Below are positions 10,153 through 34,823 of a stretch of DNA of 64,000 bases, one piece after another. The notes under the pieces are model-generated. The model ran no database searches. It saw only the letters and a program-made list of their open reading frames with translations, and was not told the DNA's origin. Each line of letters starts with the position of its first letter. The first letter of the stretch is position 1. The position numbers and the translations under genes are program-made. Origin of the DNA: Bacteriovorax stolpii (GTDB lineage Bacteria; Bdellovibrionota; UBA2428); contig CAMCVE010000001.1 of assembly GCA_945881775.1 (NCBI GenBank), positions 127,836 to 191,835 on the forward strand, given 5' to 3'.

Positions 10153-10614
10153 ATGAAATCCTCGCGGGCTCAGGGCACACATTCTCTTTTGAGGCATTCA
10201 CGAGAGATCTCACGCATCCTTTCACTTCAGGCCTCGAGGCACCAGATTCGCCTCCAGCAGGTCGCCAACGCCGGAAATCACATCCATTTGCTCCTTGAAG
10301 CGCCCTCTCGCGAGCATCTGTCAGCGTTCTTGAGAGCCATCAGCGGACGCATCGCTCAGACAGTCATCGGTCCCCAGATTCAGCCACCTACGTCAGGCGA
10401 GGCGACACGCTTCTGGGACGCACGACCCTTCTCACGCATTGTGAGCCGCGGGCGCGATCATCGAAACGTCGCGCGCTACCTCGGAATGAATTCGACAGAA
10501 ATGGCGGGACTTTCGCGTGTGAGCGTGCGAGGTGTTTTCAATGAGATCCAGGAAGCCCTCAGGCGAGGAATCCTGCGGCGAAGCCCGGGGCTTGTCGCGG
10601 CGGGATTTGTATGA
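10153..10614 (+). CDS. REP-associated tyrosine transposase-like (Y1_Tnp, IS200-like) protein; 5' end lacks a normal start
   Basis: ANAGNHIHLLLEAPSREHLSAFLRAISGRIAQ (HUH motif) and RFWDARPFSRIVSRGRDHRNVARYLGMNSTE. Same frame is open upstream to 10018 and encodes SRFAFGGAHLKDSHPKTKRIFSPKLPLHVVMKSS, a family-typical N-terminus, without an ATG/GTG/TTG start. Confidence 0.75.
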   Translation: MKSSRAQGTHSLLRHSREISRILSLQASRHQIRLQQVANAGNHIHLLLEAPSREHLSAFLRAISGRIAQTVIGPQIQPPTSGEATRFWDARPFSRIVSRGRDHRNVARYLGMNSTEMAGLSRVSVRGVFNEIQEALRRGILRRSPGLVAAGFV

Positions 10615-33807: not shown

Positions 33808-33838
33808 CATTCGCGCAGCTCGGAATGAGCGCCAGCGC

Positions 33839-33897
33839 GGATGCTCGAGCACGAAAGCGTGCGCCTGTGGCACGCTTTCCCGCCTCGGCACTTGCTC
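33839..33897. repeat. direct repeat copy 1 with hairpin GAAAGCGTGC-gcctgtg-GCACGCTTTC
   Basis: Perfect 10-bp inverted repeat 33853-33862 / 33870-33879. Confidence 0.88.
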
Positions 33898-33927
33898 GGT
33901 CGCTCCGGTGCTCACATAGCCTCTGGT

Positions 33928-33985
33928 GGATGCTCGGGCACGAAAGTGTGCGCTTGTGGCACACTTTCCCGCTCCGGCACTGCTC
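33928..33985. repeat. direct repeat copy 2 with hairpin GAAAGTGTGC-gcttgtg-GCACACTTTC
   Basis: Perfect 10-bp inverted repeat 33942-33951 / 33959-33968; differs from copy 1 by a compensatory base-pair change. Confidence 0.88.
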
Positions 33986-34061
33986 CGCGCCTCACTTCCC
34001 TCCCGCCTAGCTGGCATCTCATTCTGAGCTGCGCTAGTTGCGGAGATGCTCGTGTAGGAGA

Positions 34062-34823
34062 CTACTTTTGGCCGAGTTCTTTGAGAAACTGGAGGGCTTG
34101 GTGGGAGTCGTTGAAGAACTCGACCTGCCACGCTTTGTGCTCGATCTCCGTTGCCCAGCCGCAGTGCTCGCCGACGAGGATGGCGTATCCCTCGCGTTTA
34201 AGGGCTTCTTCGACCGCAGGCCTATCCAGGAGATCGTCGCCAATCACAACGGGTTTAAATGCGCACCCTGGAGCGAGGCCCGCCTCGACATCCCGTATCG
34301 CGAAACTTTTGTTGTATTCGGTCGAGAGGAGTTCTGCCCCGCGAGCGCCCACGTGCCAGACCCAACCTTTTAGACCCGTTGGCAAAGGGTGGTGCAGGAT
34401 GAACTTATGAAGCTCAGCCATATTCACGTTTTGGTAGGGAGCAATCCGCAGACTCGAAGGCTTCACCTCGAGTCTGAGACCCTTGTTGGCTTCGAGAGAC
34501 TTTTGGTAGATCTCGATAAGTTCTGGCGGTAATGCGGGGCCGACGAGAGTGCTGGTTTTGGCCGTGGCGTTCCAGCGCAGAGAGCCCTGAATAAAATAAC
34601 CAGAAAAAAGAAGATAATCTGACAGTACGGATCCCAAGGATTCTACGCGTCGCCCCGTATTCCAATAGACTCCGCCGCTCTTCTTGGAGAGCGAAGCGAC
34701 GACCTCGTAGATTTCTTGAGGATCATAAGAGCGCCCTTCCCAGACTTCGAGATGGGGACAAAGAGACCCGTCAAAATCTAGGAAGAAATAGAGATTCTTG
34801 AAGGCCGCATTTTGAAGTTTCAA
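34062..34823 (-). CDS. HAD-family phosphatase, trehalose-6-phosphatase-like
   Basis: LYFFLDFDGSLCPHLE, VYWNTGRRVESL, FKPVVIGDDLLDRPAVEEAL. Confidence 0.75.
   Translation of the reverse strand: MKLQNAAFKNLYFFLDFDGSLCPHLEVWEGRSYDPQEIYEVVASLSKKSGGVYWNTGRRVESLGSVLSDYLLFSGYFIQGSLRWNATAKTSTLVGPALPPELIEIYQKSLEANKGLRLEVKPSSLRIAPYQNVNMAELHKFILHHPLPTGLKGWVWHVGARGAELLSTEYNKSFAIRDVEAGLAPGCAFKPVVIGDDLLDRPAVEEALKREGYAILVGEHCGWATEIEHKAWQVEFFNDSHQALQFLKELGQK

Follow-up and report, generated by a model that had tools for sequence, protein, structure and literature searches.

An intergenic element of Bacteriovorax stolpii as a probable old, enlarged copy of a structured IS5-type MITE

A 222-bp intergenic stretch in a 64,000-nucleotide piece of the Bacteriovorax stolpii genome (the whole piece is referred to as the window) is probably an old member, grown in size, of a structured MITE family of the IS5 type, a reading to which we assign a probability of roughly 70%. 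The element is proposed to be a non-autonomous transposable element (MITE) of 95 to 280 bp. Copies in relatives insert at a 4-bp YTAR target, mostly CTAG, and duplicate it, and an ISButh5-like DDE transposase of the IS5 type would move the element in trans via its ends.

RESULTS

Architecture of the 222-bp stretch

The element lies beyond the terminator of a SWIB gene (PF02201; 33313-33744, plus strand), and the minus-strand gene on its other side ends at 34062 (Table 1). The initial annotation had named these neighbors SWIB and HAD; the former name is borne out by Pfam, whereas the second gene gave zero Pfam matches at an E value of 0.001, its HAD identity being plausible from an N-terminal LDFDGS motif. 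The inverted ends were recovered as a 17-nt repeat of 94% identity that is extended by 7 further pairs past a bulged A, and the two direct repeats as units of 54 nt, not 59 bp as first described, which are 89% identical and have a spacing of 89. Both 10-bp stems with 7-nt loops are present in the sequence, as is the one compensatory C-G/T-A pair between hairpins 1 and 2; in the motif pair suggested to enclose hairpin 1, GTGCTC occupies 33908-33913 as reported, and GAGCAC starts at 33848 instead of 33847. Upon folding, the 222 bp reached z values of -7.6 and -6.5 for the two strands relative to dinucleotide shuffles, with 0 of 200 shuffles equaling it.

Table 1. Features of the element in the window
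Feature	Position	Strand	Basis
Whole element	33813-34034, 222 bp		between SWIB gene and minus-strand 'HAD' gene
P1 5' arm, outer stem	34018..34034	-	inverted repeat; minus-strand reading GCGCAGCTCAGAATGAG; family-wide covariation of P1
Bulged A (34017) and P2 5' arm UGCCAGC	34010..34017	-	sequence
Conserved core, 5' half, TA-GGCG-GGAGGGAAGTGAGGCGCGGAGC	33982..34009	-	matches C2:170880-170999 and G002 copies
Accessory hairpin unit 1, at apical (P3) position	33928..33981	-	direct repeat with unit 2
Apical P3 hairpin remnant ACCAGAGGCTAT	33916..33927	-	alignment with copy B
Conserved core, 3' half, GTGAGCACCGGAGCGACCGAGCA	33893..33915	-	20-mer identical in copy B
Accessory hairpin unit 2, between core and P2	33839..33892	-	direct repeat with unit 1
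P2 3' arm GCUGGCG	33830..33836	-	sequence; covariation in the family
P1 3' arm, outer stem	33813..33829	-	inverted repeat

Placed side by side, the window copy, the partial second copy of the genome at C2:170880-170999, and the rpsD-adjacent match of a same-family genome display a common architecture consisting of a long outer stem P1 ending in ATGAG/CTCAT, a bulged A (found also in copies B and C), and a 7-bp P2, which differs in all three with compensation (UGCCAGC/GCUGGCG, UGCCGGC/GCCGGCG, and UGAGCGC/GCGAUCG). The three-copy core reads GGCG-GGAGGGAAGTG...GACCGAGC, and the 20-mer common to the 3' half of the window core and copy B had 0 matches in a backward control. Neither of the other two copies has the hairpins of the window copy, these having been inserted at the tip and beside P2, respectively; the hairpins on which the initial annotation centered are real, but they are optional accessory modules within a frame whose core lies elsewhere. 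A similar GTGCCGGAGCGG...GCCCGAGCATC unit is present in the copy at C5:3570. In the window copy, the 54-nt hairpin module would have been acquired and then duplicated.

Across the family, the shared portion comprises the long outer stem and a frame that reads GC-AA-GGCG...CAA-CGCC-GC, together with short GC steps that separate loops rich in purines. Extra hairpins of 30 to 130 nt, which are lineage specific, occur at the fold tip in L176, L149, L190, and L217, and other extra hairpins occur at P3 in L149 and L173. Within each of six genomes (G006, G014, G035, G041, G046, and G051), near-identical cores are combined with very different yet complementary outer arms, and the orthologous copies L116/L268 and L302/L112 display the same pattern of differing outer arms.

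Copies in related and distant genomes

A BLAST search with 241 bp retrieved one partial second copy from the same genome (C2:170880-170999), situated between convergent genes, and a weak match beside rpsD in a genome of the same family. Model 1, a covariance model built from three copies, was run against 98 genomes of the phylum and gave 5 matches in the window's genome, 14 in the same-family genome G002, and single matches in three others. Model 2 (R2), built from six copies with the window copy excluded, had matches in 11 of 37 relatives, the highest count being 46 in a single genome of the phylum; it also matched the window at 33886-34010 with an E value of 4.6e-6. The possibility, raised at the outset, that no other copy exists is removed by the multicopy family that these searches yielded. 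Overall, the window's genome has 6 matches, two of which possibly represent one locus because both lie at the ends of contigs and have the same sequence. Scanning GTDB genomes with a DNA pattern returned at least 120 stretches from Rokubacteria, Methylomirabilota/NC10, Deltaproteobacteria, Chlamydiae, and others, and the covariance model gave 76 matches in the 80 scan loci listed. As is typical of MITE copies, those of the element are multiple, dispersed, and about 95 to 280 bp long, and they are noncoding as judged by length alone; their number per genome is uneven, ranging from 0 to 46.

Further observations concern individual genomes and loci. G026 carries approximately 46 copies (e.g., in L128, L130, and L132), some of them in tandem arrays and several at contig ends, for which reason its assembly was probably broken by the repeats. 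One NC10 MAG has approximately 200 end-motif matches (forward plus reverse). In G039, two tandem copies are located immediately upstream of a tmRNA gene (L061, 709-943). Copies truncated at the 5' side were also seen; they hinted at a retro-type mechanism but carry no weight for it, since the scan pattern itself selects intact 3' ends. L351 and L352 are viral contigs in which the pattern of the element's 3' end occurs, and the plasmid and phage records examined were free of the element. End sequences of this type presumably also occur in other genomes. Rfam returned nothing at the gathering threshold or at E <= 1, the literal end sequences have no occurrence in the open part of PubMed Central, and a description of the family is absent from the open PubMed Central literature searched, although an entry may exist in a subscription journal or in ISfinder.

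Covariation of the fold

An alignment of 69 distinct sequences was made with the covariance model and consequently leans toward structure. In this alignment, 84.8% of cells are paired and double changes occur in 30 of 34 pairs; the 464 double-change cells observed compare with 129 after shuffling and 50 to 135 with slid partners. Exchanges of G-C for C-G at the step pairs are likewise seen when six sequences are aligned with MAFFT, which uses no structural information. The initial annotation had read selection on the hairpin from its single compensatory pair, which does not carry that claim; the family covariation does, as obtained with the covariance model that the annotation had itself suggested. 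Covariation beyond phylogeny, as judged from the shuffle and slide controls, is what a structured RNA, as the initial annotation also considered, would display, without distinguishing RNA from DNA. On the strand carrying the GA loops, G.T mismatches outnumber A.C mismatches by 96 to 32, an excess present in 22 of the 27 columns that are informative (p 0.0015); when the copy-rich G026 is left out, the counts are 51 versus 30 and the columns 16 versus 7 (p 0.09). This suggests that the GA-loop strand is the folding strand, which is a lean and no proof.

Paralogous regulatory RNAs (3' UTR elements, terminators, or sRNAs) that are non-mobile and vertically kept would account for the strong covariation and for the one-sided mismatch excess, but this excess falls to 51:30 without a single copy-rich genome, the favored strand is antisense to the gene abutting the 3' end, and an Rfam match is absent. 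Alternatively, the compensatory changes might be template-switch corrections of quasi-palindromes, in which case the covariation would stem from mutation and not from selection on the fold. Such correction would yield near-identical copies with different yet complementary outer arms in one genome, as are seen; however, the core 2-bp steps covary as well, and mismatches (tandem GA, A/A, the P1 C.C, and the AA bulge) are conserved beside covarying pairs, which counts against template switching because correction should erase mismatches. We consider this origin of the covariation quite unlikely.

Insertion sites and target duplication

Among the 59 complete copies, which are of the NC10/Rokubacteria type and belong to the GTDB-scan matches listed, 24 have identical 4-mers on both flanks, compared with 11.2 in shuffled partners (p < 5e-5), whereas none has identical 5-mers, fixing the duplication at 4 bp. 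The flank pairs include CTAG/CTAG (16 copies), CTAA/CTAA (4 copies), and TTAG/TTAG (3 copies); the 4-mers of the two flanks covary at position 1 (p 0.003) and position 4 (p 0.0003), and YTAR is present on both sides of 27 copies, as for an IS5-family target. In a pair of NC10 MAGs with flanks of 91% identity (L167 and L206), one locus is element-free and reads GAGGGA-CTAG-CCGGCC, and the other contains a 153-bp element between the same flanks, preceded on the left by CAAG and followed on the right by CTAG. Because both arms are missing at the empty site, both are part of the element, and an origin of the outer arms as host palindromes or flank copies was ruled out on this basis. As a counterpoint, L167/L206 is the sole empty site, and its left duplicate is the CAAG. 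Together with the high and uneven copy number, the empty site and the 4-bp duplications stand against vertically kept RNAs.

A MITE-like mobile unit, as initially proposed, is consequently upheld for the family by its copies, 4-bp duplications, empty site, and IS5 ends. The checks suggested for duplications and empty sites were positive in relatives, which supply all of the direct evidence for mobility. The window copy itself lacks a target duplication, with CTAG at just one of its flanks, and the genomes covered include no close relative with an orthologous site. Its outer arm GCGCAGCTC... is not recognizable as an IS5 end, and the core alone ties it to the mobile copies. Since CTAG is one-sided and the arms have diverged, the window copy is probably old and probably dead.

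Opposite-strand genes on the 3' side have their stop at one exact offset in approximately 25 of the 59 copies and at a second position, within the end repeat, in 11. Four copies, in L121, L105, L071 (window's genome), and L103 (G033), directly adjoin tRNA-Asp, tRNA-Met, tRNA-Thr, and tRNA-Gln genes. Placement at the ends of genes, or behind tRNA genes, would likewise suit regulatory RNAs, a reading that on balance we regard as unlikely. For a mobile element, insertion at a stop codon would be harmless because CTAG, CTAA, and TTAG contain or complete TAG or TAA, which the duplication restores; this would explain why many copies are positioned on gene ends, often right at a stop codon.

IS5-type ends and candidate transposases

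The ends of the element read CAGGCTG(C/T)TGAAAAA. The carrier genome G014 contains an IS1182/IS5-like element with ends GAGGCTGTCGAAAAA. Plasmid-borne relatives include ISButh5, which extends from CAGGCTGTTGAAA to TTTCAACAGCCTG between two CTAA flanks, and an Azotobacter IS5 element beginning with CAGGCCGTTGAAAAA between two TTAA flanks. The match to IS5-family ends holds for the family but does not extend to the window copy, whose arms have diverged. IS5 elements duplicate YTAR (PMC10359306) or CTAG (PMC10379815). Because of the ends and the YTAR target, a DDE transposase is indicated, and IS5-family transposases most likely move the element family, on the strength of these sequence matches.

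No PF01609 transposases were found in the window's genome, G002, G026, or G041, several of which are draft assemblies, and the copies in these four genomes may be immobile now because such transposases are missing there; those in the window's genome are probably stranded. Among the matches listed, neither the loci examined nor five carrier genomes yielded an autonomous element of full length that has exactly these ends. An IS701-type DDE_5 transposase was discarded as mobilizer, being present inconsistently, in 2 of 16 genomes.

The REP/BIME-like nature also proposed initially, with movement by a RAYT (Y1 HUH transposase) as ssDNA and the folded strand as substrate, is very improbable, and RAYT was rejected as mobilizer: although the element is palindromic and extragenic with one folding strand, and Y1 genes occur in several carriers including the window's genome, there was no Y1 match in four carriers (G002, G014, G041, and G051, all draft), a copy lies beside just 1 of the 42 Y1 loci examined (L345, among L081-L092 and L321-L350), a GTAG or CGTC tag is absent, and Y1 enzymes are not known to leave 4-bp duplications. 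The window itself encodes a Y1_Tnp (RAYT/IS200-type) domain at 10195-10479, within an open frame of 198 aa; the genome has three such domains, and no family copy lies within 1.5 kb of this one.

DISCUSSION

A transposase that acts on end repeats alone leaves the conserved internal fold of the IS5-type MITE unexplained. The covarying fold may be kept for action as a folded single strand, and our best guess is that it forms an RNA structure at gene ends, where it would terminate transcripts or shield them, making insertion tolerable or useful. Tentatively, the copies might be viewed as a MITE family spread across many phyla with a folded RNA or ssDNA cargo, ready-made 3' ends at stop codons, and swappable tip hairpins. 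The family reaches 46 copies in a single draft genome and is without an Rfam match or a description in the literature searched. It ties IS5-type transposition to stop codons via the YTAR target, and it is a case, open to testing, of a MITE in which structural constraint extends beyond the ends to the interior.

The BOX elements of Streptococcus pneumoniae are modular, with outer parts that pair and optional inner modules that vary in number; the element has a similar modular plan, likened by architecture and not by sequence, in different phyla. BOX and RUP are treated in PMC3049150. Bacterial MITEs such as RUP and NEMIS (PMC3733652) are also small and gene-flanking, do not need an ORF, and have inverted-repeat ends and target duplications, whereas here the arms vary with compensation, the internal fold is conserved across phyla, and many phyla are occupied. 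REP/BIME and RAYT/TIRYT repeats are, like the element, extragenic palindromes 3' of genes (PMC3733652), but the element is longer and tagless, has a 4-bp duplication, and is not linked to a Y1 gene. IS1272 (IS1182 family), which has a DDE transposase of a neighboring group, uses palindromic targets near gene ends (PMC5678879) and replaces a host hairpin without duplication, whereas the empty site found here is a plain CTAG. Compared with the ISButh5-like IS5 group (NF033581-type transposases), the element is protein-free and has a structured core that is not in the terminal sequences of four IS copies, and it has in common with this group the ends CAGGCTGTTGAAA(AA) and the 4-bp YTAR duplication (PMC10359306).
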